A DNA stretch of 64,000 bases. It comes from Candidatus Thiodiazotropha sp. 'RUGA' (GTDB lineage: Bacteria > Pseudomonadota > Gammaproteobacteria > Chromatiales > Chromatiaceae). Shown one piece after another: positions 21,627-39,058 of the stretch. Positions within the stretch are counted from its first letter, which is position 1; every line of letters begins with the position of its first letter. The translations under genes and the position numbers were made by a program. The notes under the pieces are model-generated. The model worked only from the letters and a program-made list of their open reading frames with translations. It had not been told where the DNA came from and did not search any database. Location: NCBI GenBank assembly GCA_016842065.1, contig JAEPDS010000006.1, positions 62,001 through 126,000 on the forward strand, given 5' to 3'.

Positions 21627-21644
21627 CGTATACACCCTTATATG

Positions 21645-24600
21645 TTACTGCTCTTCAGCACGACGTTTTGCATAGGCTCGTGCCTGACGGGCATTCTGCA
21701 GCTGCAGATATCCGAAGAAGATGATCATCAAGCCCAGCAGAAGCATCAGATCGGCGGATCCGCCGCCGCCACCGCCACCGCCATTGTCATCTCCATCACT
21801 GCCACCATCCTGCTCATCATCGGAGATGGTCAGGGTGAAGCTGCCGCTATTGCTATCAATTGTCGCTGTGCCTGAGGCATTACCCAGGACGAAGGTGATT
21901 GTCCGGTCTCCATCAACAACCGTATTGTCAATGATCTCCACATTGATGGTCTTTTGCGTCTCGCCACTGGCAAACTGCAGGGTTCCTGTGGTGACATTGA
22001 AATCGGTACCGGCAACAGCGGTCGATGTGCCAACGCTCAGATCGACACTGACCGTACCAGTCAGAACAACGCTGCGATCGATGGTGAAGCTCGCATTGAC
22101 TGAAGATTCATTCACAGTAAGGCTGGTGATGGTGAAACCGATCAGGGTGGATGCGTTGAGTACGTCATCATCGGTGATGGTAATCTGGCCACTGCTCTGA
22201 TCACCGGCAACCGCCCCACCCTGAAAGTTACTCATCTGCAGTAGAATTGTCTCATCGGACTCCACCTCGGAATCGTTCAGCAACGGAACGGTAAAAGTCT
22301 TATCCGCCGCATCCCCATCGGCAAAACTGATGCTGCCGGAGGAGTAGGTATAGTCTGAAGAGGCAATCGCAGTGCCATCCGCTGTGTTGTAATCGACCGA
22401 TACGGCACCGGTTGAACCACCACTGCGTGAAACAGTCACCGTGACATCGCCGCCATCCTCAGCCGCCGTGATGGCTGAATTGGAGAAGATCAGAGAACCG
22501 GCAGCAGGCGGCTCGTCATCATCGGTCACGCTGATGGTTGCCGCAGCGGTATCACCCAGTGACGCGCCAACCGCATCAGAGAGTATCAGGTTGATGGTTT
22601 CGGTACCTTCATAGAGTCCGTCGTCGACGATGGTGATTTCGAATGTCTTGGATATTTCGCCATCCGCAAACATCAGGGTACCACTGGCAACCTGATAGTC
22701 GATACCGGCAATTGCGGTGCCATCTGCGGTTGCATAGTTGACCTGTGCAGCACCACTACTACCACCCTGACGTTCGACGGTCACCTCAATCAGGCCATCA
22801 GCCTCGTCCGCACCAAGTGCGCTGGCACTGAAGACCAGCAAACCGGTTGCCGGTGCCGCATCATCTTCAGTGATCACCAAGTCGACCTGAGATGTCTGAC
22901 CCAGCACGGCGCCACCGGTTGGGTTGCTCAAAGTCAACGTAATACGTTCATCCCCTTCGTATTCACTGTCATCGAGCAGCGTTACCTGGAATGATCCACT
23001 GGTCCCACCATTGGCAAAGTTGACGCTGCCGGAAGCGGCCGTGTAATCCTCACCAGCGGTGGCTGTTGAATCACTGGTGGCGTAGCTGACCCCAACGGCG
23101 CCACTGCTGCCGCCCGAGCGTGAGACGGATATGGTGGCGGTACCACCATCCTCATTCAATTGATACTCAGAGAGGCTGAACTGAATGCTACCCGCGGCAG
23201 GTATCGGATCATCACTGCTCAAAGTCACGACCGCAGAGGCCGGTGTGCCAAGTACAGCGCCACCTGTTGGCGTAGCCAGGGTGACCATCAGAGTCTCATC
23301 CGCTTCGTAACTGCTGTCATCCAGAATCGGAATCGTACAATTGCTGGTGAGCTCACCATCGGCAAAACTGACCGTGGCCTGGGTTGCTGTATAGTCAGCT
23401 CCGGCGGTGGCGGTAAGATCGCTGGTTGAGCAGCTGATCGAGACAGCACCACTGCTGCCGTTAGTGCGGGTCACCGGCACCAGAATCGATGTATCGCCCT
23501 CTGAGGCGGTATAACTGGAACCGCTGAACTGCAGGCTACCGGAACTCGAGACCGGCTCATTGTCGGTGATCGAGACTTCGGTAACATCCCGGGCTGCCAG
23601 TGCAACCGAGACCGGATTCGAGAGTGTGATCAACAGAGACTCAGTACCTTCCGTAGTGGCATCGTCTGTGATGGCTAGGGTTATGCTGCTACTGATCTGT
23701 CCATCGACAAACGAAAGCGTACCGGAGGCGGCTGTGTAGTCACTGCCTGCCGTAGCCGTTGCGTCACTCATGGCATAATCCACCGAACCACTGCCGGAGC
23801 TGCCCGCGTCGCGCTGCACGGTGATGGTAACGCTGCCGTCACCTTCACTGAAGGTATAAGTACTGCTACTGAACTGTACCGTGCCAACGGTTGGTGCATC
23901 GTTATCGGTAATGGTCACCGTGGCACTGTTCTGCGCACCGATGTTGAGACCGCTCAGATCGATCGTAAAGGTCTCGTTGTCCTCGAAGACCGTATCGTCC
24001 AGAATCGTGATGCTGATCTGCTGACTGCTCTCACCATCGGCAAAATTGAGGGTTCCTGAAACTGGTGTGTAGTCCTGATTGGCACTTGCCGTGTCGATCT
24101 CACTGTCACTGTCAGTTGCATAGTCAACAGAGAGCGCACCACTGGTGCCACCGGTACGTTCCACGGTGAGCTGAAGGGTGGAGGCATTCTCAGCCACGCT
24201 GTAGGTGGCGCTGCTGAACTGCAGTTTCTGGCCGGGGAATGCGCCGGACTGGGCGCCCAGTGTAAAATCATCCGAGAAGAAGATATTGACTTCATCTCCT
24301 CCCTCATCCACCGCCTCTACCAGTACGTTGGTGAAACCCGCATCATCGATGAAACCGAGAAAGGTCCAGCCTGTAACCGTGGCCTGTGAACCGGTGAAAT
24401 CGACCGGCGCCGAACCGTTGGTGGTAAAACCGATTTTCGCACCCGTACTGCTGCGAAACCAGCCGCCTACGCCGTAGAGGGTCGTGCCGCTGGCGGTCAA
24501 GGTGTACTTGTCCGGTACCAGGTGATCATTTCGGTTGTCCACGGGGAACATCAGATAGCTGCCCTCATGCACATCGCCACCACTGGTGGAGGTACGCACA

Positions 24601-24869
24601 AAGGAGGCTTCCGTGGAACTGCCCGCCCAGGTGATGCCTTGGGAGGTCACACTCTGAACACCGGTACTGCGAGTGCCGTCCCAGGCGCTGCCTTCAAAGC
24701 TCTCTTTGGTGATGTCTGGTGAAATGGAGGGTAGATTGGAAAGATCCTGGATGAATTGAGCCTCGGCTGTTGCATCGCAACAATAGACGGTCACCACCGC
24801 GTGGGATTCAAATGAAGAGGCCAGTCCGAGTAATGTTAGAAAACCAAGCAGATGATTTCTATATTGCAT
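21645..24869 (-). CDS. surface protein with seven Calx-beta repeats and GlyGly-CTERM-like tail
   Basis: 1074 residues from the ATG at 24869 (GAAGGA site). The signal peptide (~1-24) is followed by a ~190-residue beta-rich domain resembling an extracellular lectin/PEP-CTERM-type module. Seven Calx-beta repeats then start with LQFSSATY, VQFSSSTY, LQFSGSSY, IQFSLSEY, LVFSASAL, LIFSNSAI and IGFTITSL, each with 'FADGE…I…I.DD..xExxE'. The C terminus has an eight-Gly run, SADLM, a hydrophobic helix and a basic end (YAKRRAEEQ). That layout matches rhombosortase-processed GlyGly-CTERM signals of type II secretion substrates. Calx-beta repeats bind Ca2+ and mediate adhesion or spacing. Second gene of the 25485-17760 operon. 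Confidence 0.88.
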   Translation of the reverse strand: MQYRNHLLGFLTLLGLASSFESHAVVTVYCCDATAEAQFIQDLSNLPSISPDITKESFEGSAWDGTRSTGVQSVTSQGITWAGSSTEASFVRTSTSGGDVHEGSYLMFPVDNRNDHLVPDKYTLTASGTTLYGVGGWFRSSTGAKIGFTTNGSAPVDFTGSQATVTGWTFLGFIDDAGFTNVLVEAVDEGGDEVNIFFSDDFTLGAQSGAFPGQKLQFSSATYSVAENASTLQLTVERTGGTSGALSVDYATDSDSEIDTASANQDYTPVSGTLNFADGESSQQISITILDDTVFEDNETFTIDLSGLNIGAQNSATVTITDNDAPTVGTVQFSSSTYTFSEGDGSVTITVQRDAGSSGSGSVDYAMSDATATAGSDYTAASGTLSFVDGQISSSITLAITDDATTEGTESLLITLSNPVSVALAARDVTEVSITDNEPVSSSGSLQFSGSSYTASEGDTSILVPVTRTNGSSGAVSISCSTSDLTATAGADYTATQATVSFADGELTSNCTIPILDDSSYEADETLMVTLATPTGGAVLGTPASAVVTLSSDDPIPAAGSIQFSLSEYQLNEDGGTATISVSRSGGSSGAVGVSYATSDSTATAGEDYTAASGSVNFANGGTSGSFQVTLLDDSEYEGDERITLTLSNPTGGAVLGQTSQVDLVITEDDAAPATGLLVFSASALGADEADGLIEVTVERQGGSSGAAQVNYATADGTAIAGIDYQVASGTLMFADGEISKTFEITIVDDGLYEGTETINLILSDAVGASLGDTAAATISVTDDDEPPAAGSLIFSNSAITAAEDGGDVTVTVSRSGGSTGAVSVDYNTADGTAIASSDYTYSSGSISFADGDAADKTFTVPLLNDSEVESDETILLQMSNFQGGAVAGDQSSGQITITDDDVLNASTLIGFTITSLTVNESSVNASFTIDRSVVLTGTVSVDLSVGTSTAVAGTDFNVTTGTLQFASGETQKTINVEIIDNTVVDGDRTITFVLGNASGTATIDSNSGSFTLTISDDEQDGGSDGDDNGGGGGGGGSADLMLLLGLMIIFFGYLQLQNARQARAYAKRRAEEQ

Positions 24870-24891
24870 ATTTCCTTCTCGAGTCAACGGG

Positions 24892-25485
24892 TCAGTTGAC
24901 TGTTAAATTTTCAGCTTTGAAGTCGCCAATCACCATTGTAACTTTCTCTCCTGATTTCACATGCGCATCAGGATTGCCAAATACCATGTAGTAGGTCTTA
25001 TTGGACTTGATGTTCATACCCCGGTTGGTTGGTCTGAAGGCACCAACCTTGGCGGCCATGGGTATAGGTAGTTTAGCATTAGATTTCTCGACTTTGAGGT
25101 GCGGTTTGATGCGACTGTCGAAAAAAATCCTGGCTTTCTCGAGATCCAGTACCTTAAATCTGAAATCGATCATGTAGCCGGCTGCAGCCAGACGCAGACT
25201 GAGCATTTCGATACCCCATTTTTCCGCAATCTTCTTGGCGGTCTCTTTATCCACAGGGGGTTTGGGAACTGCCGGCATGGCAACAGGCGGTTTCCAGGGC
25301 TTGGGTGCCGCCTGCTCTGCGGTCTGCGGGGCGGTTTTACTCTCCGCCTTGGCGACCGACGAGGTGAATGCAAGAAAGGCCGTGGCGCAGATCACCAGGA
25401 CCAGTATTACCAGCAGAGGATTGCCTCCAGGATGTCTCTCCTTTTCATCCTCAGGCGCTTTGTCGGAAAAGTGCGAACTTTTCAT
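24892..25485 (-). CDS. exported/membrane-anchored protein of unknown function
   Basis: 197 residues from the ATG at 25485; the frame is open to 25566 but that part overlaps the upstream terminator, so the later start is preferred. One N-terminal membrane segment (NPLLVILVLVICATAFLAF, ~24-42) is followed by a Pro/Ala/Lys-rich linker and a ~130-residue periplasmic domain ('KWGIEMLSLRLAAAGYMIDFRFKVLDLEKA', '…KTYYMVFGNPDAHVKSGEKVTMVIGD'). I do not recognise it with confidence. It is the first gene after the copper-oxidase operon terminator and probably heads the operon of Calx-beta, Sco, cytochrome/PBP and kinase genes. Confidence 0.7.
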   Translation of the reverse strand: MKSSHFSDKAPEDEKERHPGGNPLLVILVLVICATAFLAFTSSVAKAESKTAPQTAEQAAPKPWKPPVAMPAVPKPPVDKETAKKIAEKWGIEMLSLRLAAAGYMIDFRFKVLDLEKARIFFDSRIKPHLKVEKSNAKLPIPMAAKVGAFRPTNRGMNIKSNKTYYMVFGNPDAHVKSGEKVTMVIGDFKAENLTVN

Positions 25486-25524
25486 GGTACTACCCAGGAA
25501 TTGCCTCTTTTTACGTTTGATCTT

Positions 25525-25558
25525 AACAAAAATCCGCCCCCTGACGTACAGGGGGCGG
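25525..25558 (-). terminator. rho-independent terminator of the copper-oxidase operon
   Basis: Perfect 10-base GC-rich arms CCGCCCCCTG (25534-25543) and CAGGGGGCGG (25549-25558) enclose a 5-base loop. Read on the minus strand, the hairpin is followed by ATTTTTG. It lies 22 bases after the stop of the last gene of the operon. Confidence 0.92.
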
Positions 25559-25579
25559 TGCCTCACGCCATGATACTAA

Positions 25580-28500
25580 TTATGGCTCGATGTCGATTGG
25601 GACATTGAAGTAGACCGCGTTGGGGAAATTGGCATCAATTACCTCAACTTCCAGATAGTCATTGCCATCCGGCAGTTCAACTTCAGGTCGATTGTTACCA
25701 ACATTATTGACGTTGATACCCCAGACACGCTGTCCGCCGGCATTCCGGATACGACCATTGTTATTGCCAGTCACATTGGGAACGATCTCAACACGTGGGG
25801 ATGGTGTCCCGTTGGTATCGACCCGCACCAGGTAGACCCGTACGCCTTGCGCAGCACCTGTGGTTGGGATGCTCGGGTCAACCAGACCTCTGATGCGCCA
25901 CCTATCATTGCCGGGAGCGGCAGTATTACGTTGCAGATAGGAGGACCGGGTAACAGAGACCTGACGCACGATGTCAGCCGTAGCGGTATTGCTCGGAGCC
26001 GTGAGATCGCTCGCCTGATACTCGATACTGGTCAGAGTACCTACAGCTGTGGGGTCGATCGCAAAGCTCGGTATGGAACCATCGATACCCAGTGCAGGAT
26101 CCAGGTTGTCAGGATCATTCACTTCGGTCGCCAGCAGTCCGTCATTCTCGAGATCGGTATCGTTCCCGAGAACCCCAGGTGCTGCAACACTGAAGGTCAT
26201 GGATACTGGCTCACCCTGTCCATCCAATACAGCGGTAGAGGCATCCTGTACATACAGCGTATCGTTCACAGCCACCGGTGCATCGTTGACCGGATTGACA
26301 GTGATCTCAGCGGTTACCGTGTTACTGCTGATGGTTACCAGATTGCCGCCATCATTATAGGTCTCTTCCAGATGGTAGACGATGGTGTCGGCACCTCTGG
26401 CACCTGCGGTGTCATTCAAGGTACAGGCATCTGCGTCATCCACGGGAGGATTGACACTGTTCCAATCCAACAGAGGCTCATAGTGGAATGAACCAGTCAC
26501 GCCATCGTAGGTGAAGCTACCGGCTGTGGTGTTGGCACAGGTCGGTGCACTATCCACGACTACCGCCAGGGTACCACCATTGATGGGTAATTCACCGATC
26601 AACAGACCGTTGGCTGCGAGTACATCAAGGATCGAATCCTCATCAGCGGTATAGGTCTTGCCACCGACAGCGATCAAGCCGGATGCCGGAGCAGGATCGA
26701 TGGTCACCGTTGCAGCAGGCGGATCGGTCAGACAGACATCATCCAAAGGTGCAGCGGTCAGACAGTAGGTGAAGCTATCCCCGGCAAAAGTTCCTGCCGG
26801 TGGGGTATAGGTAAACGTACCGTCGTCTTCTACAGTCGCCGTACCACCGGCAGCCGGTGCTGAAGCAAGCGCCAGACCATAAGTGGCGGGCAAATTGACA
26901 TCATTGGCATCGAGATCCAGCGTTCCGATCTGATCCAGCGTGGTTGTATCATCAAACAGCGTTGGTCCAGGGAAGGCCAGGGAGACCGTTGCAGACTGAC
27001 CCTCAACCACATTCAGACCGTCGGTCATGGTGAAGTCCAGGTTCAGCTGATGTGGCGCCGGGGTGCCTGCAAAGCTGATGCTGCAGGTACCTGCCACGTA
27101 GTCACAACCCAGCAAGGTTGCGGTGGTTGCAGGAACCGCTGCGATGGCAACCGGAGGAGTATCTGATACGGTTACCGTATCACCGGCCGTCGCATCGGTT
27201 GCATCCGCTACCAGGTCCGCCAGATTGATGGTAGCCACATCGGCAACCAGCTGGTCTGTGGTCACCACGACTTGAGGGGCAGCTGCCAATACAGGTGCAG
27301 CGTTAACCTCTACCGTCAGATCAATATTGCCAAGAACAGGCGTTGTATTGGCCGCAGTGGTGATTTCATAGTTATACAGAGCGGTTTCACCCCCAACTAT
27401 CGTGGGTGGCAGTTGCGAATCGACAGTCAGATCACAACTTGTTCCACCAGCCAGACAATCCAATGACATTGTCAGACCGGGAATCGAGAAGACATCACCG
27501 ACGATCGAAGTTGCACCAAGGATCAGAGCATCATTATCCGGATCCAAGTCATTAGCCAGTACGTTAATGGTCTCGGTGACCTGATAGGCTGTGTCAGCAC
27601 TGACGATTTCCGGAATCTGAATGGTGATCGGATCCGCATTGGCAATCGGTGGTTGATTGTTACCGTTGGCATTGAATGCGAGAAAACGCAGCATGCCACC
27701 GATATCGTCGCCCTGTGTGAACACTTCAGGATCACTCGGGTTGGTCATGTTGCCATTGCCATCATAGACCGCATAGCGACCACCGAAAGTGGGATGAATG
27801 ACCACATCTTTGGTCTTCAGGGGTGGTATACCAATGGAGTACTGAGTTTTTGGTGCGGTATGCGCACCTGTAGCATCCTCATAGGTATAGGGGATGCCGT
27901 CCTCCGCATGGATTGTACCGTAGAGGCCCTGCAATACAGAGATATGCTTCTCACTCGCGGCACTGACATAACGCAGCAGGGTCGGACCGGCGGTTGTCAG
28001 TGGTGTAACACCATCTGCACCGTTGACGATATCCGGAAAACCGGCCTGGTAAGGTTCGCCATTGATCATGTACCAACTAGGATGACGATGAATGGCGGTA
28101 CCCAGAGTACCGGCAACCACATCGGCGTTAAAATCCGTATCCACATCGTGGTAGAAGAGGATCAGCTCATTCGCATAGGTTACTTCATCACCACTGGCTG
28201 GAACGCCGTCATGATCATAGAGCACATTGCCCACATCGGCGTCTTTGGTAATGACACCGGCCAGCCCCATATAGAGCTGCTTCTGTGGCCAGGTACCCGT
28301 GTGATACATCAGTGTACCGCTAGTGTCGATGGCATTGGCACCCGCCCAGGAGTAGACCTGTGTACCGCCATTGGCGTCAGCTTCCACACCGTAAGAACGA
28401 ACCTTTTGGATCTGATTGGTACGAGGACCTGTACTATTGTCGTCCCAGGTTGGTCCCATCAGAGGTAACTGCTGACCCGGTATGACGATCGAGGTCTGCT

Positions 28501-28831
28501 CATCCAACAGATTGGTGAGATAGATATTCAATACAGGATCGGCTGGATCGATGGTGATCCGCGGCCCTGGTGCGCTTGCTACGGCACCGGTACAGGCAGC
28601 ATCCGCCGGGTTGCCCGCATTGTAGCAGGCACCAGGGGAACCGATATCATCCAACGCATAACCCCACATAGTGGTGGTTTGTGTCCCGCCACCCGAAAGT
28701 GGCAGATCCATTGTGAACGATTTAGCAATGAGATAGACATCCAATGCATTCGCTTGTCCGGCTCCTAAAGCCAAGGCACAGGCGACTACGATGGGTTTCA
28801 GTGTTTGCTTCATGGTAGTAGACCTTTTCAT
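25580..28831 (-). CDS. cupredoxin-like protein without copper ligands, fused to cadherin-like repeats
   Basis: 1083 residues from the ATG at 28831 (GGGAGGG site; the upstream extension is not needed). The signal peptide (to ~31) is followed by a two-domain multicopper-oxidase-like region (~32-420). It has the same start pattern as its two neighbours (MWGYALDD), and at the position of the HCH motif it reads YHTG (His177, Thr178). The first His-x-His motif is replaced by 'SIVIPGQQ', and the second domain also lacks His pairs. From ~430 to ~960 it is a chain of Ig/cadherin-type repeats ('VLANDLDPDNDAL', 'TYTPPAGTFAGDSFTYCL'), then a beta-rich ~125-residue C-terminal domain. Probably a surface scaffold rather than an enzyme. 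Last gene of the operon. Confidence 0.8.
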   Translation of the reverse strand: MKRSTTMKQTLKPIVVACALALGAGQANALDVYLIAKSFTMDLPLSGGGTQTTTMWGYALDDIGSPGACYNAGNPADAACTGAVASAPGPRITIDPADPVLNIYLTNLLDEQTSIVIPGQQLPLMGPTWDDNSTGPRTNQIQKVRSYGVEADANGGTQVYSWAGANAIDTSGTLMYHTGTWPQKQLYMGLAGVITKDADVGNVLYDHDGVPASGDEVTYANELILFYHDVDTDFNADVVAGTLGTAIHRHPSWYMINGEPYQAGFPDIVNGADGVTPLTTAGPTLLRYVSAASEKHISVLQGLYGTIHAEDGIPYTYEDATGAHTAPKTQYSIGIPPLKTKDVVIHPTFGGRYAVYDGNGNMTNPSDPEVFTQGDDIGGMLRFLAFNANGNNQPPIANADPITIQIPEIVSADTAYQVTETINVLANDLDPDNDALILGATSIVGDVFSIPGLTMSLDCLAGGTSCDLTVDSQLPPTIVGGETALYNYEITTAANTTPVLGNIDLTVEVNAAPVLAAAPQVVVTTDQLVADVATINLADLVADATDATAGDTVTVSDTPPVAIAAVPATTATLLGCDYVAGTCSISFAGTPAPHQLNLDFTMTDGLNVVEGQSATVSLAFPGPTLFDDTTTLDQIGTLDLDANDVNLPATYGLALASAPAAGGTATVEDDGTFTYTPPAGTFAGDSFTYCLTAAPLDDVCLTDPPAATVTIDPAPASGLIAVGGKTYTADEDSILDVLAANGLLIGELPINGGTLAVVVDSAPTCANTTAGSFTYDGVTGSFHYEPLLDWNSVNPPVDDADACTLNDTAGARGADTIVYHLEETYNDGGNLVTISSNTVTAEITVNPVNDAPVAVNDTLYVQDASTAVLDGQGEPVSMTFSVAAPGVLGNDTDLENDGLLATEVNDPDNLDPALGIDGSIPSFAIDPTAVGTLTSIEYQASDLTAPSNTATADIVRQVSVTRSSYLQRNTAAPGNDRWRIRGLVDPSIPTTGAAQGVRVYLVRVDTNGTPSPRVEIVPNVTGNNNGRIRNAGGQRVWGINVNNVGNNRPEVELPDGNDYLEVEVIDANFPNAVYFNVPIDIEP

Positions 28832-28847: not shown

Positions 28848-30278
28848 TTATTGGATTGGTGTACCAGGAGGCAGCACAACTACCGATCCCAGGCTTCCGC
28901 CAGGGAAGATGTCAAAGGTAGTCAGCTCTTTTTCAGCATGGGAGTGCCATACCAGGAAATAGCCGCCAAAGGGATTCAGACCACCCTCACCAGGAGGCAG
29001 GTCACCGGTATCGCCCAGGAAGGGGCTGCCACTCCACCAGCCGCCCAGGGTCAGATCACCCACACCGGGCAGTGAGACCGGAATCGGCTTACCGTGGTCG
29101 TTACACCACTCACCAGGATAGTCAGAGTTGGCATCCGCATATCCGTCACGTGGATTGACATCGATACAGTTGTGTCCCGCATCGTGACCGTAGATGTCCC
29201 AGCCCAGGTCTTTACCGGTCCAGGTCCAGAGAGCATCAACCGTCTGCTTAGGTTGTGAGTTGATGGTATTGTCCGAACGACCCAGGTCAGCCAGAACACC
29301 GTCGGAACTCAGCATCTTGCCGTCACGGCCAATGAAACGCAGGTTCTCACCATGGTAGTGCATGGGATGGGCATCCTGTCCTGCGTTGACATTGCGGACC
29401 AGGACCACATCACCGGGACGCGACATGACCAGAGCCTCATAAGGCTGGTTGGGGAACAGGGTGTTGTAGTCACCCTGGAACAGGTCCGGGAAAACCCGGC
29501 CGTTGATGAACCAGACCTTGGCATAACGATCGGTGTTGGTGAAGTGGTTGATGTGCCCCTTCTCCATCTGAATATGGATGTCCGGATCCACCTCGGTCAT
29601 CAGGTAGAGGTTCTCGTGATCGTAATCGGTTCCGGTACCGGCACCGTATGCAGTGCGGTTGTTGATCGGATCGTAATCAGCCGGTCTGACGACCATCACA
29701 CCCACCAGGCCCATTTCGGTATGCAGCCCAGGGTTCTGACCTGCCAGACTGTGGTAGATGTAAGTGCCGGGAGAACCCGCTGTGAAGGTATAACTGACGG
29801 CCTGGCCGACAGCGGCTTCGTTGGTAAACAGGCCAGCTGTACAGTTGGTCGCACCGGTTGTCGGAGTCGGACCACCGGGTGCTGGAATATCGATACATTG
29901 AGAGTCGATCTCGTGACCGGTCATCTCAATGGAGATATTGTCCGGCACACCGTAGTTCACCAGATTGATGGTAACTGCCTCACCCTCGGTGACGATCAGT
30001 GTCGGCGCCGGGTACTGAGGCAACTGGTAGCTGGCACCCGCCTGATGGGAAGCACCTTCACCCAGGTCCAGATCACCGAAGCCCCACATGTAGAGACTGG
30101 TGCCCTCCGGCAGGTTCATATTGAATGGATAGGCATAGAGGTTGAACACACCGTTGGCACCCTGTGAGATGCCGCGGATGTCGTGCTCCGCCTGTGCCTG
30201 CTGCACAGTCAGTGCACTGCTCATGCCCAAAAACAGGAGGCCCAAGAGCCGTCCAGGTTGTTTGAGTAGTTGTTTCAT
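28848..30278 (-). CDS. multicopper-oxidase-like protein carrying second-domain copper motifs
   Basis: 476 residues from the ATG at 30278, chosen because AGGAG sits 9 bases upstream (an ATG three codons earlier abuts that site). Signal peptide to ~31. Two cupredoxin domains. In the first, the site aligned with HCH reads YHSL (His176, Ser177) and no HxHG is present. In the second, HPMHYHG (His304, 307, 309) and WHSHAEKE (His445, Ser446, His447) are intact His pairs, but the type 1 Cys is Ser. It could supply half of a trinuclear copper centre, with no type 1 site of its own. 27 bases after the preceding oxidase gene. Confidence 0.82.
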   Translation of the reverse strand: MKQLLKQPGRLLGLLFLGMSSALTVQQAQAEHDIRGISQGANGVFNLYAYPFNMNLPEGTSLYMWGFGDLDLGEGASHQAGASYQLPQYPAPTLIVTEGEAVTINLVNYGVPDNISIEMTGHEIDSQCIDIPAPGGPTPTTGATNCTAGLFTNEAAVGQAVSYTFTAGSPGTYIYHSLAGQNPGLHTEMGLVGVMVVRPADYDPINNRTAYGAGTGTDYDHENLYLMTEVDPDIHIQMEKGHINHFTNTDRYAKVWFINGRVFPDLFQGDYNTLFPNQPYEALVMSRPGDVVLVRNVNAGQDAHPMHYHGENLRFIGRDGKMLSSDGVLADLGRSDNTINSQPKQTVDALWTWTGKDLGWDIYGHDAGHNCIDVNPRDGYADANSDYPGEWCNDHGKPIPVSLPGVGDLTLGGWWSGSPFLGDTGDLPPGEGGLNPFGGYFLVWHSHAEKELTTFDIFPGGSLGSVVVLPPGTPIQ

Positions 30279-30305
30279 TAATCTCATCTCCTAGTTCGGC
30301 CAGGC

Positions 30306-31670
30306 TCAGTTGATGACAATCTCAGTGATCATGCCGCCATCCAACTGGGTTGCATTACTCATCTGATGCACTTCAGTGGCGTGCAGGAAGTAGGTACCCG
30401 GGGCAACATCAGCGGTGTCGATAATGATGTCGAGGGTCTCACCACCACCGAAGTTGTGGGATGCAGCCTCTTTATAGATGTTCTTGCCATCTATACCGCG
30501 CATATGACGGGCGCCGGTGCCCACTACCTTCATGGTCAGACCTGGGGCAGTGATGGTCCAGAAACGGTCCAGCCCCACATTCGACAGGCGTAGTAGCAGC
30601 CGTGCCTCACCACTCGGATAATCAGCACGATTTATCTCAATGTCAGAACCGATTAACTGAGTTGGAACACCCTCATTGGTCAATGGAACAGCATCAGCAG
30701 TACCTCCTACTGGTTCACCGGTAACCTTACCAACACCGGGGACAGGATCCAGCGGATCTTCAGCATCCACTGGCGCGGGTAGTGCACCAGGGAAAACGGT
30801 ATCTGGATATCCCCTGCCGTTGAATTGGGGATAGTTGCCTTCCAACAGCGCAAAGGGCAGTGGCTGCACAAACAGACTGGCATCATGGAACACCTGATCA
30901 AAGCTTGAGAGTTGAAGCGCCTTCTCTACTTCAAACTTGGTCGTACCATCACCATCGTTGTAGACATATCCCTCATCACCTACTGCGGCGGCACAATTGC
31001 CATTGGGAATTCTCACCGGATCGTATTCAGTCGTACCTGGATTGTCTGGCCCGAAATCAAAGCAACCCAGTTCATCCTGTATCGGATGGACATAGAGATT
31101 GGCCAACATACCCATCTCCATATGCTCGGTGGCCTCCACGTGACAGTGGTAGAGATAGGTGCCAGGCTCGACGATGTTGTAGTAGTAGGTCAGGGTCGAA
31201 CCCATGTTGATACTGACAGAGACCTCGGGAACACCATCAAATGCAGCAGAGGCATTCGGGAAGCCGTGAAAGTGAACAGTATGGGGGTCGAACAGATCGG
31301 GGCGAACCACGGTACCCACATTGGTCAGGTTGAGGAAAAAGTGATCTCCCTCATCCAGCTCGATGGTCGGTCCGGGCCACTCTGCGCTGAGGATACCCCT
31401 TCCGATAACATCACGAGGTGCGGTACCGGTCTGATCACCAAAACCAAAGGTATAGAGTGGATTGCCGTCAGACATCTTGGCGTAGCTGTCACCGGCGATC
31501 AGGTGCATGCACTTTGTATTAGGCGGCTGGGTTTCACCACCTGTCCATGTTGCATCACCGTTGTTATCCCCAGGACACTGTACATTGACAATGGCACTGG
31601 CCTGGCCCGAGATGCCCAGCAGCGCCAGGGCAATCGCTCCGGCAAGGGCTTGCTTACTAAATAGTTTCAT
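30306..31670 (-). CDS. multicopper-oxidase-like protein carrying first-domain copper motifs and type 1 Cys
   Basis: 454 residues from the ATG at 31670 (AGGAG 10 bases upstream, then a clean signal peptide ending GISGQASA). The frame is also open to an ATG at 31805, two bases after the upstream stop; that longer start would bury the signal peptide. Domain 1 has HTVHFHG (His130, 133, 135) and HCHVEATEHMEMGM (His175, Cys176, His177, His183, Met188), i.e. a type 1 copper site and two trinuclear His pairs, with a five-residue gap between HCH and the next His where three is usual. Domain 2 (to the end) has only 'YFLHATEVHQM' and no HPxHxH. It is complementary to the next gene. Confidence 0.85.
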   Translation of the reverse strand: MKLFSKQALAGAIALALLGISGQASAIVNVQCPGDNNGDATWTGGETQPPNTKCMHLIAGDSYAKMSDGNPLYTFGFGDQTGTAPRDVIGRGILSAEWPGPTIELDEGDHFFLNLTNVGTVVRPDLFDPHTVHFHGFPNASAAFDGVPEVSVSINMGSTLTYYYNIVEPGTYLYHCHVEATEHMEMGMLANLYVHPIQDELGCFDFGPDNPGTTEYDPVRIPNGNCAAAVGDEGYVYNDGDGTTKFEVEKALQLSSFDQVFHDASLFVQPLPFALLEGNYPQFNGRGYPDTVFPGALPAPVDAEDPLDPVPGVGKVTGEPVGGTADAVPLTNEGVPTQLIGSDIEINRADYPSGEARLLLRLSNVGLDRFWTITAPGLTMKVVGTGARHMRGIDGKNIYKEAASHNFGGGETLDIIIDTADVAPGTYFLHATEVHQMSNATQLDGGMITEIVIN

Positions 31671-31807: not shown

Positions 31808-34800
31808 CTACTGCCTCTCATCGGCACCGGCATCCGGAGCGGTGGTACCAGCCGGCCTTGGCTCACCATCGATGTCGGTTGACAGGTTACCGCCCAGGGC
31901 TGTGGTGACATTGCCACCGGCCACATCCAGTGCAGGACTGCCAGCCGCCAGATGATAGTCGATCAGGCCGTCCGCTGTTCCGGTATCACCATCGATATCC
32001 AGCAGCGAGAGCGGACCGAAGTTGACCTGCAGGAAGTTACCGCCTTCATCGAAGGCACCTGCTGCCTGCAACACTTTGAACTCTGGGAAGAGCAGTGCGT
32101 TGCGGTCTTCATTGAAACGACCGTTTTCAAACACTGGTCCGAGAACGTTGTGCGGATCGTTGTTTGCGGTTGTGTAGCCATCAATGAAGGTGTTGGGGGT
32201 AACCGCAGTGGCACCGGTCTGCAACACATTACGCTGTGGACGCAACAACATGGCACCTAACGTAGGATGTACCGGATTAATCTCATGTCCACTGAGTACC
32301 GCCAGATCCTGTGTATAGTCCTCCACGTTAACCAGTGTGATATCACAGTTGGTGTTGGTGGTGTTGTCACAGGATGCGGGCACCAGACCATTCTCCAATA
32401 CTATGGTGGCTGGATCATCAGTGTTCCGCCAGTAGAAGGAACGGTTGTGGTAGACGATGTTATCCAGCAGTTGGATCGGATCGGAGAAAGTCATCCGCTC
32501 GTCATCCCGATTGCGTGGATCACCTTCATCGAAATCACCCGGGAACTCTTCGAGAATGTCACCGTCGATCAGCGCTGCCATGGTGGCACTGTGATAGCGA
32601 GACACGATACCCGCAGGCTTAGCGATCGATTGATTAGGATCAGTAGCAAGAAACGCCTGTGATCCGGTTGCAGTCGAATCGTTGTTAACAATCGTGTTGT
32701 AACGAATGTAGGCCCTGACCGTATCAGAGAGGGAGAGACCGCCACCGGCAACACCAGAGACATTGTTGCTCAGGAGGTTGTTGGTGACAAACACCCGATA
32801 CCAGCGTCCGAAGATGTCGGGGTCACGGGCGATATCCTCACCATTCACATTGACCAGAGCGATACCGCCGCCATCACCGGCACCGGCCAGATTGCCCCGA
32901 ATCTCGTTGCCGTCGATGATCATGTGACCGGCACCAGGTGACAGGGTCAGCCCGGTCTCCTCGTCAATCCGCAGCCCAGGCAGGCCGCCGACAAAGATAC
33001 CGGCACCAGCAGGTTTGGTACCCGGAGTCTGGCTGAAGCTCTCGTTGAAGATAATGGTGTTATCCAGGATCTGACCACCGCGGGAGAGACCCAGGTGACC
33101 GATACCGGCACCATCGCCTTTCGAGAAGTTACCGCAGATCCAGTTGCTGCGAACACGATAGTTGTTAGCACCCGTATGGATAGCGATACCGCCGCCGGCG
33201 CCATTCAATCCACCATTCTTGATGATCTCATTGTGATGGATGTTCATGTTATCGGCGAAGGCGTCGTCATAGGCCATGAAACCGTCTTCAGCCTGATCTT
33301 CAAGCCAGCTGTTATAGCCGCGTCTGAAGAACTCGTCATCTTCACCAATGACTTCATGGGTCAGAGTGGAGTGACCGATACGGATACCACCACCGTAGAA
33401 ACCGGAATTAGTGGTAAGACGGTTATTGGAGATAACCAGGAAGCGGGTGTAACCATTGGCAACAATGCCGCCACCGGTACTCGCACCGATGATGCTCAGA
33501 CCATCGATACGGGCATAGCGGTTATGGTTGTTACGATGGAATCGGTTGGGACCGGTCCACTTACCCGCAACCATGATGCCTGCACCCTCTTCCGTGGGGA
33601 AGATCGGGGCACCCAGTGCACCCTGAACCCCACCGAAGAAGGGTACGGGTACCAGCTGTGCCGGCAGTTGATCGATGGTACCTGTACCAACCAGCTCAGC
33701 GGCCAGCTCACGCCAGGCAATGATCTTCTCTGTCGGTGTCTGACGGGCGTTGATGGTGGTTGTTTCAGCACCAAAACCCTGCAGCTTGACCGGCTTCCAC
33801 ATGATCACCATCTCATTGTAGATTCCGGGTTTGACGATGATCAGATCACCAGCGTTGACGCCACCAAGACCGTTATCGAGACTGCCGATCGCATCCTGAA
33901 TTGTCGGATAGGCGACGCTTGGTACATTGACAACGTTATAAGTGGAGTTGTTGTTACCAAGACCCACACCTTCAGCGGTACCGACCGTCAGGGTGATACC
34001 TGTCGGAGAGACGTTACCGTTGCTGTGAGTTACCAGCAGTTGATACTCACCGGCTACCAGGCCAGCGGTAGATGCGATAATGGTGTTGTCACTCCAGGTT
34101 GAAGCAACCAGGGTAGTTACAGCATTACCATTCCGATCCTGAACAAGAACCGAGCCGGCAACAGTACCAAAGCCGTAATCCCGATCGATGTTCTGTTCAG
34201 CTAAAGGATCACCATCAGCCCATTCCGGATTACGAACAGCGGTCAGGCCCTTGGCGTTGATGACGATGTTCTCACTCGCACCGGCGACCACGAAAGGACC
34301 TTCGATGCCTCCATTCGGGTTTTGACGCAGTACGGAGGAGATCGCCGGGGTCTGAGTTGGCGCTTCACAATCCAGCGGGAACTGATCCGGACCGGCAAAG
34401 GCGGCCACCGGCTCGACCGGGGTATCCAGATAGGTGATGGTACCCGGCATATACTGGAAGGTGTAACAGAACTGGCTGTACTGAGTATCGAAATGGGGAT
34501 CGATAATGAACTCAGGATTACCGCTGGCATCAATGCCGTCACCGGCGGCACCAGTGAAATCCGGATTCGAAATCGGACCCGCATCGTTCATACAGGAGAC
34601 CAGCATGTTCGGTGACATGCCGGAAGGCATCGGCAGATTTGCAGTGGTGGTCGAAGCAACCATCAGGTTGTAGCGACCATACTTGTCCGCATAGATACGA
34701 TTGATCTCATTACCGTTCCAGTCGTAGAACGCAACCGGTACATGAGGCGGGGCGAACTTCTCACCGAACTGGGGTGAGTTCGGATTGAACTCGTTGGCCA

Positions 34801-37800
34801 GATCGTTGAGGATCACGCCCGAGATGTTGCCTGCTTTAGGCACATCGGTCATCAGGAAGAACTCAGCCGCCGCATTCTGACCGGCAGAGAGCGGTACATG
34901 CTTGAGATCACAGAGTGGTCTCATTTCACCGGCGAAAGGCGCTCCAATGGCTTCAACACCGGGGATCAGCTGGGCTGCATCACCACTGCCATCTTTGGTA
35001 GCCATCGCCAGATATTCAGGCACCATCACTTCCTCACCCACACAGGTGGCGGGGAAAGCCTGCAGTGATGGGATGTACTCATCACCGTAGTCCACATTCT
35101 TATGGTGCTCCCTGACCAGCTTGTAACCGGCAGGTGTGGCCGATTCAATCAGATAGTCACCAGGAATGAGCCAGGCCTCCGGAAGATTCAGCTCGGGCCA
35201 GCCGGTATTCAGATCAGCGTAGAAAGCGCTGAGCTTGGCGGCCACAACCGCGGCGTTATAACCAGCAGAGGCAGGAATCGAGGCCAGATGGTCCAGATCG
35301 TAATCTTCGAAGGCATAACCACCGTCGAACAGAGCATCGCGAACCTGGTTGAAGTTACGCAGGCCATCGAAACAGCGCTGGTCATCAATCGCGGGGGCGA
35401 CCTCCGCACCGGGTGGATTATTGGTTCCCTGACAACCTGCGGGCAGATTGTCATCCCAGCTATCGGTGTGAGTGAACTGTAAGGCATCACCCATGTCAAA
35501 AACACCGTTGCTGTTGTAATCCACATCTTCAGGTCCGGGGAAGACATCAAGCGGATGGTTGTTCACGTCAGCCCGCTGAATACCTGGAATACCATTGATG
35601 TCCTCAATAACACCATCGTCTGGATCCTGGATACCGTTGCCATTCCAGTCGATGTCGCAAGGATCACCCGGGAAGTTGTTCAGCGGAGGACAGTTGACAT
35701 CGCCATCTGCATAGAGGGCCAGTTGCACCCGAGGCACACCAGGCTCCCACTCTTCGGCCGCAGCGAACTGAGGCTCATCTTCCGCACGGGTGGTGGCGTA
35801 GTAGACGATACCGGAGATACCGCCGTTCTCACCAACGTACTCGGAGATTCTTGGAGGGAATGCAGTGAAGTCGAATGGAGTATCGATCACATAGTCGACT
35901 TTACCGAACTGCATCACACTGGTCTGACCCAGGAAGCCCTGGAAGCCCTGGGTGAGCACCAGACCGGTCTCGGTGCGTGACAGGTTGTTTCCAGTGTTCG
36001 GGTTAATCATCTGGCGGGCGTTTTCAACAACCCAGGTAGCACCATTGTCATCAGAACCGAGACAGTCGCCGATCGCACCGCGAGGATCGGTAGCAGAGAT
36101 AACGATATCACTATGACCTACGCCACGAGCTTCACACTGTCCCTGAGGGTTGAGTTCACCAAAAGTAGGATCAGCCCAACCGCCGTCCGGACGAACTTCA
36201 CCACCTGCGTCCACAACAAAAGTGGCGCCAGTGGCTTTCTTGTTACCGAAGCTGACTTCAGCCACCAGCCAGTGGAAGAATGGGAAGACTTCATCAAAAG
36301 GTGCTAAACCATCACCATCAGTCGGGAAGGCCTGATAGATGGTACCGTCACGCCAGCGCAGTACGGTCTCCTGACTTTCAGGACCGATACCGATCTCACC
36401 GTCATCCCAGAAACCGTCCTGGTCATCATCCCTGAAGATGCCGGTATTGAGACGTGTGAACCAGTTGAATACCGGTACTTCACCGAAGTTACAGGAGGCG
36501 CCGCCATTACAGGTTCCACCGGTTGGATCCACGGTGAACAGCAAGGAAGCAAAAACCACATCCAGGTTGGAATCCCAGATGGCCAGCTGATATTCACCAG
36601 GTGGTACCAGACCCACTGAGAAATCACTGTCAGCACCGCAAGCACCCGCATGGACTGCCTGACCCAGTGCACCGCCGACACCAACCTGGTTGATGGCAAC
36701 CCAACATTGTGGGAAAGGACGGCCACTGAAGAAGGTGGTAGCCGGGTTACGTGACATGTGCATGTCGGTAACGACACCGCTCACAGTCGCCACCTGCTCG
36801 CCTGTCTGGGCTGGAGGCAGATCGGTGAAAGGACGCACAAAACCCATGAAGACATGGGGACCGGGAATACCGAACTCTACAAAGACCGCAGGCTCGTTGG
36901 CCTTGACCCAGGCATCGATTACCTTACTACCCTCGATGGTGCTGGTCTGCTGCCAACCGGCATTGGGTGGCGGAATGATAACCACGCCGTACTTACCCGG
37001 GGCCAGGTTTTTCACTGAGATGAAACCATCTGCATTCGGCTGCATGGTACCGTCACCCAGCTCATCGATAACCGGATTGCCATCAGCATCGATACAGGTC
37101 GCATTGATCATGCCGCCTGGGGTATCACCACCGGCACCAACCGGGTTACTGGTGGCACAGGTCTGGTCATAGGAGGTACCGAGGTAGTTACCGAAGGCAT
37201 CCTGAATCACCTGACCACCGGCTGCGCCGTAACGACCGCCTGGCTCTTCCAGGAACAGGCTGAACTGAGTCCAGTCCACGCTGCCATCGTTCTGCTCTTC
37301 CGGCAGATCCGGAACACCATTCACCGGATGCTTGTCTTCAAACAGATAGATCGAGATCTGTGCTGTGGGGATCGGATGCTGCTGTACTGTGACAGTAACC
37401 TCACCGGCCGCTATCGTTCTCAGATCAACCGAATCGCCACTCAGGCTGTAACCACTGTAGGGGTGCACTGATACGTAGTAACGTCCAGCGGGGATTACAT
37501 CACCGATCGTCGCTGTAGATGCATCTACATTGCCCGACAGTGAACCCGATCCGTCAGTAGCAACGCCGACTTCGTGATTACTCGCGTGAAAGCTCAACGA
37601 CAGCAATTCATCAGCGGTTGTTCCAGGATTCGCCGGATCGACCGGAAAGGTGTTATCCCTCTCCAGCAACCAACGAAAACCGAAATTCGGATCAGTGATT
37701 GGGTTGCCTGACTGATCAACCACATTGATGGTCAATGAGGCTGCATTCAGCGCAGTAACCAGAAATGAGAGACACAGAAATACAAATAACTGTAGCCCTC

Positions 37801-37831
37801 TGTTCATGTAACCCTGACTTTCATTTATCAT
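31808..37831 (-). CDS. giant exported repeat protein: SdrD-B-like modules, IPT-like domain and beta-helix
   Basis: 2007 residues. The ATG at 37831 has a TGGAGA site; an ATG eight codons later would give a shorter signal peptide (MNRGLQLFVFLCLSFLVTALNA). The N-terminal two thirds contain several prealbumin/SdrD-B or carboxypeptidase-regulatory-like modules ('GDVIPAGRYYVSVHPYSGYS', 'NLAPGKYGVVIIPPP', 'SVGLVPPGEYQLAIWD') and Ca-binding-like DxDxDG loops ('FRDDDQDGFWDDGE', 'DIDWNGNGIQDPDDG'). Near residue 1190-1310 is an IPT/TIG-like domain. From ~1320 onward is a right-handed parallel beta-helix ('YPTIQDAIGSLDNG', 'IHHNEIIKNGG', 'ILDNTIIFNE'). It ends with a short 'SPALDVAGG…PDAGADERQ' motif common in such proteins. 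No anchor seen. First gene of the copper operon. Confidence 0.82.
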   Translation of the reverse strand: MINESQGYMNRGLQLFVFLCLSFLVTALNAASLTINVVDQSGNPITDPNFGFRWLLERDNTFPVDPANPGTTADELLSLSFHASNHEVGVATDGSGSLSGNVDASTATIGDVIPAGRYYVSVHPYSGYSLSGDSVDLRTIAAGEVTVTVQQHPIPTAQISIYLFEDKHPVNGVPDLPEEQNDGSVDWTQFSLFLEEPGGRYGAAGGQVIQDAFGNYLGTSYDQTCATSNPVGAGGDTPGGMINATCIDADGNPVIDELGDGTMQPNADGFISVKNLAPGKYGVVIIPPPNAGWQQTSTIEGSKVIDAWVKANEPAVFVEFGIPGPHVFMGFVRPFTDLPPAQTGEQVATVSGVVTDMHMSRNPATTFFSGRPFPQCWVAINQVGVGGALGQAVHAGACGADSDFSVGLVPPGEYQLAIWDSNLDVVFASLLFTVDPTGGTCNGGASCNFGEVPVFNWFTRLNTGIFRDDDQDGFWDDGEIGIGPESQETVLRWRDGTIYQAFPTDGDGLAPFDEVFPFFHWLVAEVSFGNKKATGATFVVDAGGEVRPDGGWADPTFGELNPQGQCEARGVGHSDIVISATDPRGAIGDCLGSDDNGATWVVENARQMINPNTGNNLSRTETGLVLTQGFQGFLGQTSVMQFGKVDYVIDTPFDFTAFPPRISEYVGENGGISGIVYYATTRAEDEPQFAAAEEWEPGVPRVQLALYADGDVNCPPLNNFPGDPCDIDWNGNGIQDPDDGVIEDINGIPGIQRADVNNHPLDVFPGPEDVDYNSNGVFDMGDALQFTHTDSWDDNLPAGCQGTNNPPGAEVAPAIDDQRCFDGLRNFNQVRDALFDGGYAFEDYDLDHLASIPASAGYNAAVVAAKLSAFYADLNTGWPELNLPEAWLIPGDYLIESATPAGYKLVREHHKNVDYGDEYIPSLQAFPATCVGEEVMVPEYLAMATKDGSGDAAQLIPGVEAIGAPFAGEMRPLCDLKHVPLSAGQNAAAEFFLMTDVPKAGNISGVILNDLANEFNPNSPQFGEKFAPPHVPVAFYDWNGNEINRIYADKYGRYNLMVASTTTANLPMPSGMSPNMLVSCMNDAGPISNPDFTGAAGDGIDASGNPEFIIDPHFDTQYSQFCYTFQYMPGTITYLDTPVEPVAAFAGPDQFPLDCEAPTQTPAISSVLRQNPNGGIEGPFVVAGASENIVINAKGLTAVRNPEWADGDPLAEQNIDRDYGFGTVAGSVLVQDRNGNAVTTLVASTWSDNTIIASTAGLVAGEYQLLVTHSNGNVSPTGITLTVGTAEGVGLGNNNSTYNVVNVPSVAYPTIQDAIGSLDNGLGGVNAGDLIIVKPGIYNEMVIMWKPVKLQGFGAETTTINARQTPTEKIIAWRELAAELVGTGTIDQLPAQLVPVPFFGGVQGALGAPIFPTEEGAGIMVAGKWTGPNRFHRNNHNRYARIDGLSIIGASTGGGIVANGYTRFLVISNNRLTTNSGFYGGGIRIGHSTLTHEVIGEDDEFFRRGYNSWLEDQAEDGFMAYDDAFADNMNIHHNEIIKNGGLNGAGGGIAIHTGANNYRVRSNWICGNFSKGDGAGIGHLGLSRGGQILDNTIIFNESFSQTPGTKPAGAGIFVGGLPGLRIDEETGLTLSPGAGHMIIDGNEIRGNLAGAGDGGGIALVNVNGEDIARDPDIFGRWYRVFVTNNLLSNNVSGVAGGGLSLSDTVRAYIRYNTIVNNDSTATGSQAFLATDPNQSIAKPAGIVSRYHSATMAALIDGDILEEFPGDFDEGDPRNRDDERMTFSDPIQLLDNIVYHNRSFYWRNTDDPATIVLENGLVPASCDNTTNTNCDITLVNVEDYTQDLAVLSGHEINPVHPTLGAMLLRPQRNVLQTGATAVTPNTFIDGYTTANNDPHNVLGPVFENGRFNEDRNALLFPEFKVLQAAGAFDEGGNFLQVNFGPLSLLDIDGDTGTADGLIDYHLAAGSPALDVAGGNVTTALGGNLSTDIDGEPRPAGTTAPDAGADERQ

Positions 37832-38395
37832 GGATTTTTCTCCAGACCCCTATTGGTCATTCAACTTTCCCGGGGCTCTTCTGACTCAAGTCAAAAAAAC
37901 TACCAGCCCCATTACCAGTACTTAGGCCAAAGTCTACAGCCCTATATAAAAGGTGGCTTTGCGTGAAACTACGCTATTTCTCTACTTCAGCCCCTACTGG
38001 AAAAGGAGATAACCCGGTATTTCCACGGCAGCAAAAACCCTACCCTGCATGGTAGGGTTGACAAATAGGAGAAAGAGTCATCCTATGACTACTTAGAATC
38101 TTAAAATTCATATAAAAACAGACAAAAAGTTGACTTTTCCCTCACACATCTGGCGGATCGAAAAAAACCACGTCTTTCTGCGAATTTGCACGCTGGCGGC
38201 GACACCATTTTTATGGTTTATTCAATAAACATTTTGTGTCATGGTGAATGGCACGAATTCCCACCATCATGATCAGGTAGACAGGTTTGAAATTTGCATC
38301 AACTGCAATCACACCTAAACTTGTCTGAGTAAAAGCCGGAAAACGATGCGCAAGGGACTCAAAACCAGAGAGAGATGAGATAGGTTCGGGTGACA
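37832..38395. promoter_or_regulatory. divergent control region of copper operon and response-regulator gene
   Basis: 564 bases without a gene, between divergent starts. A perfect hairpin/dyad lies at 38036-38059: AACCCTACC, 6-base loop, GGTAGGGTT. CTGACTCAAGTCAA (37881-37894) reads on the minus strand as TTGAC-N4-GTCAG, a partial match to an FNR/CRP-type dyad, 50 bases before the operon start. The regulator encoded to the right is a natural candidate to bind the dyad. No convincing sigma-70 promoter was picked. Confidence 0.45.
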
Positions 38396-39058
38396 ATGAA
38401 CAGCGACAAGAAAAAAATCATCATCGCCGAAGACCACAACATTCTGCGTGCAGGGCTGAAAGCACTGCTGACTTCCAATCCCCAGTTCGATGTGATCGGC
38501 GAAGCTGACAATGGCCGCGATGCAATACGCCGGGTGATTGATCTCAAACCGGACCTGGTGATCATGGATCTGAATATGCCTGGCATGAACGGCATGGATG
38601 CGATCCGTGAAATCAGGGAGCGGGATGCAGAAATCAAAACTCTGGTGCTGACAGTACACAATGAGGAAGAGTACGTTTTGGCAAGCTTGAAAGCAGGCGC
38701 CAATGGTTATGTTCTGAAGGATGCGACTCAGAATGAATTGATGACGGCAGCTGAACGTGTATTGAGTGGCAAAACATACTTAAGCGCAGAGATCACGGAA
38801 AAAGTCGTCAACAGTTATCTGCAAACCAATAACGTCAATAACGAACCCCTCACCCGCTGGGATACAGTGACTCAACGGGAACGTCAGATATTGAAATTGA
38901 TTGCTGAAGGTCACACCAACAAGAGCATGGCCGACTATCTCTGCATCAGCGTCAAAACAGTTGAAAAACATCGCGCCAATCTGATGAAAAAACTCGACCT
39001 GCACAACGTATCAGCGCTGACCACTTATGCGCTGGAGAAAGGTTTAATCAACCGCTAA
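38396..39058 (+). CDS. NarL/FixJ-family response regulator
   Basis: 220 residues from the ATG at 38396; a GTG two codons earlier is an alternative. The receiver domain (~5-120) has acidic pocket 'IIIAEDH', phospho-acceptor Asp in 'PDLVIMDLNMPGMNG', Thr in 'TLVLTVHNEEE', and Lys in 'YVLKDATQNEL'. The C-terminal LuxR-type HTH is 'LTQRE…' like: 'VTQRERQILKLIAEGHTNKSMADYLCISVKTVEKHRANLMKKL'. It probably works with the soluble kinase convergent to it, and may control the divergent copper operon (inference from position). Confidence 0.94.
   Translation: MNSDKKKIIIAEDHNILRAGLKALLTSNPQFDVIGEADNGRDAIRRVIDLKPDLVIMDLNMPGMNGMDAIREIRERDAEIKTLVLTVHNEEEYVLASLKAGANGYVLKDATQNELMTAAERVLSGKTYLSAEITEKVVNSYLQTNNVNNEPLTRWDTVTQRERQILKLIAEGHTNKSMADYLCISVKTVEKHRANLMKKLDLHNVSALTTYALEKGLINR

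Follow-up and report, generated by a model that had tools for sequence, protein, structure and literature searches.

A putative secreted oxidase of Candidatus Thiodiazotropha sp. 'RUGA' with trinuclear copper ligands divided between two genes

The window analysed here is a stretch of 64,000 nucleotides from a contig of Candidatus Thiodiazotropha sp. 'RUGA' (JAEPDS010000006.1, positions 62,001 to 126,000), and it contains a minus-strand cluster with the gene order HELIX, A, B, and C. Genes A (30306-31670; 454 residues, numbered from 31670) and B (28848-30278; 476 residues, numbered from 30278) each encode a secreted two-domain cupredoxin protein with Pfam multicopper-oxidase matches in both of its halves. 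Gene C (25580-28831) likewise encodes a secreted protein, consisting of a degenerate two-cupredoxin head and a tail of cadherin/Ig repeats, and is a candidate for the third subunit of a ring-shaped oxidase. HELIX (31808-37831), which opens the cluster, is a protein of 2007 amino acids with a beta-helix match under the Pfam cut-off. A first-pass annotation of the window had read A and B as two halves of one heteromeric oxidase; its reading frames, motifs, and residue numbers are all right, on the minus strand, and the reading itself is weighed here.

In ordinary two-domain multicopper oxidases (2dMCOs), three identical subunits close into a six-domain cupredoxin ring, and the trinuclear copper centre lies at the junction between domain 1 of a subunit and domain 2 of its neighbour. 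To our knowledge, every multicopper oxidase builds its trinuclear site from one gene product. In the consulted portions of PMC13151041, PMC3192119, and PMC5622069, too, the site is the product of a single gene, whether it lies inside one chain or is shared by identical copies. Excerpts of the first of these sources present the 2dMCO as a trimer in which residues of two protomers complete the trinuclear site, and place the type 1 copper of type C enzymes in domain 1 (PMC13151041).

In A, domain 1 carries the motifs HTVHFHG and HCHVEATEHMEMGM, reading in full H130-T-V-H133-F-H135-G and H175-C176-H177-V-E-A-T-E-H183-M-E-M-G-M188. By equivalence to type C 2dMCOs, the first motif (H130 to H135, 31266-31283) would provide a type 1 ligand, H130, and the first pair of trinuclear-centre histidines, H133/H135, and the second motif (31107-31148) would provide the second pair, H175/H177, together with the type 1 Cys, His, and Met (C176, H183, and M188). 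In B, domain 2 carries HPMHYHG (H304-P-M-H307-Y-H309-G; H304 to H309 at 29352-29369), containing the predicted third pair, H307/H309, and a further invariant histidine, H304, as well as HSH (H445-S446-H447; 28938-28946), the predicted fourth pair. When aligned by profile with nine single-gene enzymes, the A motifs fall on the domain-1 motifs HTIHWHG and HCH..EH..GM of the complete enzymes, and the B motifs fall on their domain-2 motifs HxxHxHG and HDH. The first-pass annotation had singled out Ser446 of B as standing in for Cys; the letter is correct but no anomaly, being normal for this kind of enzyme, since type C enzymes hold their type 1 copper in domain 1.

To follow these positions across bacteria, named genome contigs were scanned with the A alignment, which confirmed 277 of 344 candidate stretches; 80 were kept as loci. 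The resulting alignment of A has 83 rows (the 80 loci, the window, and two relatives) and that of B has 82 rows in all. The first-pass description of A, with His pairs and the type 1 Cys176 in domain 1 and no such pairs in domain 2, is confirmed by alignment and row counts: the domain-2 positions facing the missing histidines are W371, T374, P376, H430, and T432, at which His occurs in 6/83, 0/83, 1/83, 18/82, and 0/82 of the rows with letters. The reverse pattern described for B also holds in the alignment. Its domain-1 facing positions are lost, with His in 0/82 rows at I115, E118, and T120; in the second domain-1 motif a lone His at position 176 is kept in 53/81 rows, the counterpart of the type 1 Cys, position 177, has Ser in 78/81 and Cys in none, and the counterpart of the other His, position 180, has Gly in 76/81 and His in none. 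The first ~400 residues of C align by profile to complete 2dMCOs with a probability of 98.97, and this head has no conserved His pair, with any HxH in 5/77 rows of the matched region and no common ligand position. Type 1 ligands in domain 1 are thus present in A and absent from B and C, and the trinuclear His pairs number two in A, two in B, and none in C.

As a positive control, nine ordinary single-gene 2dMCOs from the survey of the class Gammaproteobacteria described below were found to hold all four pairs in one chain. Thirteen loci had been examined for this set; three (L179, L180, and L193) proved to be genes of a second split type, A', also described below, and one complete enzyme (L188, 558 amino acids) was dropped before alignment. 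By ligand count, neither A alone nor B alone would be able to supply a complete centre. We rejected the possibility that A is a complete single-gene oxidase, as its facing domain-2 positions are without His pairs.

All eight A ligands (H130, H133, H135, H175, C176, H177, H183, and M188) are invariant in 83/83 rows, which for H130, H183, and M188 is partly by construction, because these residues lie inside the scan patterns EHM[EQ]MGM and RPDLFD[PA]H (present in 81 and 78 of the 83 rows). Outside those patterns are H133, H135, H175, C176, and H177 of A and every B ligand; H304/H307/H309 are kept in 81/81 rows with letters and H445/H447 in 78/78. Ten further loci found by whole profiles (L215-L224) keep all A and B ligands (10/10), and four of these belong to a divergent subfamily without the first scan pattern. 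This subfamily (L216, L217, L219, and L221) has the A motif HCH(V/I)TPPEH, and its C protein exceeds 2600 residues in the three loci where it is uncut. By record titles, 72 of the 80 loci can be assigned to phyla: 46 to Pseudomonadota, 12 to Thermodesulfobacteriota, 5 each to Nitrospirota and Myxococcota, 3 to Acidobacteriota, and 1 to Bdellovibrionota, where single placements may be binning errors because many of the records are metagenome-assembled. Such invariance across the aligned rows indicates that the half-site ligands are not due to chance, and the split pattern is ancient. It also bears on the idea that A and B are degenerating remnants of ordinary 2dMCOs, which would account for each being without half of the usual ligands. 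The reading frames are open in nearly all loci, the half-sites are invariant across at least six phyla, and the absent halves differ between A and B in a fixed way; decay is therefore rejected by conservation, and we find it scarcely credible.

A and B also occur together. Among the 80 named loci, which partly overlap the genomes of the surveys below, A lies beside B in 79, and in the remaining one (L080) the contig stops within A; among the 79, L139 has only a fragment of B, at a contig end, and L123 has B in two frames. The complete order A-B-C is found in 74/80. Five of the six incomplete loci (L080, L097, L114, L126, and L139) are cut by contig ends, and the sixth is L123, a 3.8-kb contig that ends soon after the two-frame B. 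Of 56 relatives, including the window's own genome, the same 21 have a strong A (E < 1e-75) and a strong B (E < 1e-45), and 19 of these fall among the 22 genomes of the genus. Twenty stretches from relatives were fetched, yielding 17 trio loci, all with A-B-C in order (17/17); the other three (L057-L059) are weak matches taken for comparison.

Across 369 genomes of Gammaproteobacteria, strong A and B matches (E < 1e-90) occur in the same 10 genomes at 13 places each, the next weaker matches lying at about 2e-19 for A and 6e-27 for B. Sequence was fetched for ten of the 13 places, and all show consecutive A, B, and C (10/10), with C reaching the contig end in three; the remaining places are the window and two loci already among those of the relatives. 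The first-pass annotation had looked to the pair always occurring together, and homologues regularly apart were not found (21/56 relatives, 10/369 genomes, 79/80 loci). A survey of 200 genomes of the phylum found A and B each only in the window's own genome (1/200) and is uninformative on co-occurrence.

Many of the weaker matches to the B model are adjacent gene pairs of another kind, in which a gene B' precedes a gene A'. In 20 full-length pairs (L195-L200, L202-L206, L208-L210, L226-L230, and L058), with 305-422 residues per gene, A' carries the domain-1 half of the ligands, type 1 included, and B' carries the domain-2 half. Alignments of 14 pairs were made first and extended to 20. The first 20 stretches fetched gave 14 full pairs, two A' genes at a contig end (L207), one pair cut by a contig end (L213), and four other multicopper oxidases (L201, L211, L212, and L214); a further 11 gave five full pairs and six cut by contig ends, and L058 is the twentieth. 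The A' ligands are kept in 20/20 rows, the first B' pair in 20/20, and the last in 19/20, the exception being L205, where the C-terminus of B' is disrupted and overlaps A'. In the class survey (E < 1e-50), B' occurs in 22/369 genomes and A' in 22/369, with 21 common to both. The two genomes with one partner, G359 (B' alone) and G350 (an A' fragment with an in-frame TGA), have it at a contig start. In G070, one base separates B' from a following open frame, the end of which matches the start of an A' fragment ending another contig, and from these shared letters its A' partner probably adjoins B'. In the window's genome, searches with an A query (E up to 1e-3) and with the pair models (E up to 1e-15) match only A and B.

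The pairs differ in their export signals. B' has a twin-arginine motif in 17 of the 20 pairs, and the A' partners of these 17 lack a hydrophobic signal segment, as judged by simple hydrophobicity with no trained signal predictor (maximum 13-residue Kyte-Doolittle mean <=1.44 over the first 70 residues). Export by 'hitchhiking' on a partner is a known mechanism of the twin-arginine translocation (Tat) pathway, and the presence of the Tat motif on B' beside a signal-less A' suggests that A' is exported bound to B' as one complex. The N-terminus of A' is often Gly/Met-rich and without a signal, and the A' of L200 has a possible arginine-leader start.

These pairs bear on a reading in which A and B have no common site, A being a homo-oligomeric electron carrier with type 1 copper and B a separate copper-binding or structural protein whose leftover histidines, like those of A, bind something else. 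The full type 1 site of A could work alone, the A-B complex is a matter of inference, and a further invariant histidine in each protein (A H262 and B H235) hints at other metal chemistry. Against this, A and B together retain precisely the four trinuclear pairs that one enzyme has, two per gene, with the matching positions in the other domains lost; the same division recurs in the B'-A' pairs, where export of both proteins on a single Tat signal suggests a complex formed beforehand. We regard the absence of a common site as quite improbable. The additional histidine lies at the start of domain 2 and is found in 83/83 A rows, 81/81 B rows with letters, and 20/20 A' rows (residue 196 in L195); it is common in C (52/77) but missing in L181, the ordinary enzyme included in that alignment. 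The residue could form a metal site near the axis of a ring.

Single-chain AlphaFold2 models were obtained for A (59 rows; mean predicted local distance difference test score (pLDDT) 82.7, predicted template modelling score (pTM) 0.83) and B (57 rows; mean pLDDT 82.2, pTM 0.83). The best PDB matches are 3g5w and 2zwn for A and 3gdc, 2zwn, and 3g5w for B; for both models, the alignments to 3g5w and 2zwn span 413-435 columns, and copper nitrite reductases rank lower. The entry 3g5w is the blue copper oxidase of Nitrosomonas europaea and 2zwn is a laccase from a metagenome, both type C two-domain enzymes. In a tree, A, B, C, A', B', and the ordinary enzymes each form one group (Shimodaira-Hasegawa-like approximate likelihood ratio test (SH-aLRT) 98-100), and a branch of this quick tree with SH-aLRT 95.9 separates {B, C, B'} from {A, A', ordinary enzymes}. 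A tree that unites A and A', or one that unites B and B', is not rejected (approximately unbiased test, p-AU 0.766 and 0.66), so that the tree fits one split or two alike.

The position of C decides between two ways in which A and B might share a centre. C may lie outside the ring as a separate surface protein, leaving an A-B hetero-oligomer such as an alternating A3B3; the B'-A' pairs show the same split without a C gene, and two partners can evidently suffice there. However, C is a third two-domain cupredoxin protein encoded directly after B in 74/80 loci, the branch described above groups it with B and B', and the native state of 2dMCOs is given as a trimer in the available part of PMC13151041. 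An assembly that excludes C is, in our judgement, rather unlikely. We consider it probable instead that A, B, and C form one secreted hetero-oligomeric oxidase, with a trinuclear centre at the interface of A domain 1 and B domain 2 and with C probably completing a six-domain ring. The heteromeric oxidase of the first-pass annotation, half a centre per gene, is thus supported by the ligand halves, the co-occurrence, and the B'-A' pairs, but it missed the third gene, and an A:B:C ring appears more natural than the 1:1 or 3:3 assembly proposed there, which ignores C.

According to this model of a ring including C, the three proteins would descend from 2dMCOs, and different gene products would replace the identical subunits of the ancestral ring. 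If A and B replace two ring neighbours, A domain 1, with its type 1 site (H130, C176, H183, and M188) and pairs H133/H135 and H175/H177, would meet B domain 2, with H307/H309 and H445/H447, and exactly one full site would result. C most likely takes the third place, making the B domain 1/C domain 2 and C domain 1/A domain 2 contacts dead interfaces, so that the ring would resemble ceruloplasmin in having a single oxygen site. Electrons would enter at the type 1 copper of A and pass through Cys176 and its neighbouring histidines to the shared centre, where O2 would be reduced to water. We can only guess at the substrate, possibly a metal ion or another extracellular reductant. A, B, and C carry secretion signals, and the adhesin-like tail of C, together with HELIX, would probably hold the enzyme outside the cell.

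A broader version of this model is one to which we give little better than an even chance: that the trio is a bacterial equivalent of ceruloplasmin encoded by three genes and secreted as a six-domain ring of 1:1:1 composition with one centre from two gene products, that complementary division of 2dMCOs is a general architecture, and that A' crosses the membrane on the Tat signal of B', the oxygen site arising only after heteromeric assembly.

Several observations weigh against the ring of A, B, and C. The model of B is poor over residues 401-476 (pLDDT ~48-75), where the HSH pair lies, and the fold is read from single-chain models of A and B. Co-occurrence in one gene cluster would also fit cooperation without contact, and the invariance of the three A ligands inside the scan patterns counts for less than that of the others. 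The Tat argument rests on the pairs and not on the trio of the window, since trio members mostly carry their own signals (A 73/74, B 75/77, and C 59/69 of those scored), and the remaining 3/20 pairs have ordinary-looking signals on both genes. As the B'-A' pairs are without C, C is dispensable for some split enzymes, and a ring built from two partners in equal number cannot close as a simple trimer. C shows faster evolution and could be an adhesin only. The kinship of trio and pairs also belongs here, as the tree fits either history.

Among known enzymes, the type C 2dMCOs (3g5w and 2zwn) are among the nearest to A and B in sequence and fold and resemble them in having two cupredoxin domains, a domain-1 type 1 site, and the same motif order. 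They differ in having four pairs in one chain, and are homotrimers in the cited papers, whereas A and B divide the pairs between two genes. Ceruloplasmin is a six-domain ring with interfaces that are without a site. Like other six-domain oxidases, it would share with the proposed trio the six-domain ring and, in the case of ceruloplasmin, one trinuclear centre; enzymes of this type are single chains, in contrast to three genes of two cupredoxin domains each with the type 1 copper in the first domain of A.

In the manganese oxidase MnxEFG, a multicopper oxidase is active in association with the products of other genes, and MnxG is described in the consulted portion of PMC5622069 as the only characterised multicopper oxidase requiring accessory proteins for successful overexpression. 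In contrast to the trio, MnxG is the sole multicopper oxidase of that complex, MnxE and MnxF being small and without known homologs according to the same portion (PMC5622069). No six-domain oxidase chain as in MnxG was found among the cluster proteins scanned. A search of the open-access literature by title or abstract start, with subscription papers and preprints outside its scope, found no description of a heteromeric trinuclear centre.

The trio is embedded in a larger minus-strand cluster. Downstream of C lie a small protein that is hydrophobic near its N-terminus by eye and has no Pfam family above cut-off (24892-25566), a Calx-beta repeat protein that is the next cluster gene in this genus (21645-24887), an SCO1/SenC-like protein with a possible role in copper delivery (20826-21635), and a protein with periplasmic-binding-protein-like and cytochrome c matches, both under the Pfam cut-offs (19195-20826). 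Most of the relatives' loci continue with the same four genes. Among the 80 loci, the small-protein family is present in 50, mostly as the third gene after A, a family taken as SCO-like from its position in the genus is present in 27, and the 19195-20826 type is present in 28, its member in L106 having the same two weak matches. On either side of the cluster are histidine kinases and a LuxR-type response regulator (17760-19151, 38390-39058, and 39175-40008); of these, the regulator and the kinase at 39175 are again its neighbours in many of the relatives' loci.

In two scanned loci from other groups (L110:14835-16574 and L090:14156-16396), a subtilase replaces the Calx-beta protein after the small protein, and that of L110 carries the MopE metal-binding motif (Pfam PF11617). 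Judged by eye, two deltaproteobacterial loci (L088 and L110) encode proteins with repeated CxxCH upstream of HELIX, adjoined by possibly porin-like proteins, which hints at a context of electron transfer.

Three loci have HELIX and A fused in one gene (L138, L126, and L116, of which L116 is truncated at a contig end). In L088, L101, L110, L118, and L129, the cluster is followed downstream by type II secretion genes as judged by neighbour families, with Pfam confirmation for four proteins of L088, L101, and L110. Based on these fusions and secretion genes, the site of action is likely the surface or the extracellular space. Apparent HELIX-A fusions in L112 and G344 (L222) were rejected, being long open frames running into A's own signal peptide, and long B or C frames overlapping other genes in GC-rich loci were not counted as fusions.

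If the proposed ring is correct, a centre made from two co-inherited gene products would represent one route by which a symmetric homotrimer loses its sites stepwise, the end point being a single-site ring like that of ceruloplasmin. It would also give a role to genes that resemble defective oxidases, of which 277 A-like stretches were confirmed here; surveys that require the four His pairs within a single protein would overlook split enzymes of this kind. The trio would then be an uncharacterised secreted oxidase of bacteria that, by record titles, include users of sulfur, iron, and methane.

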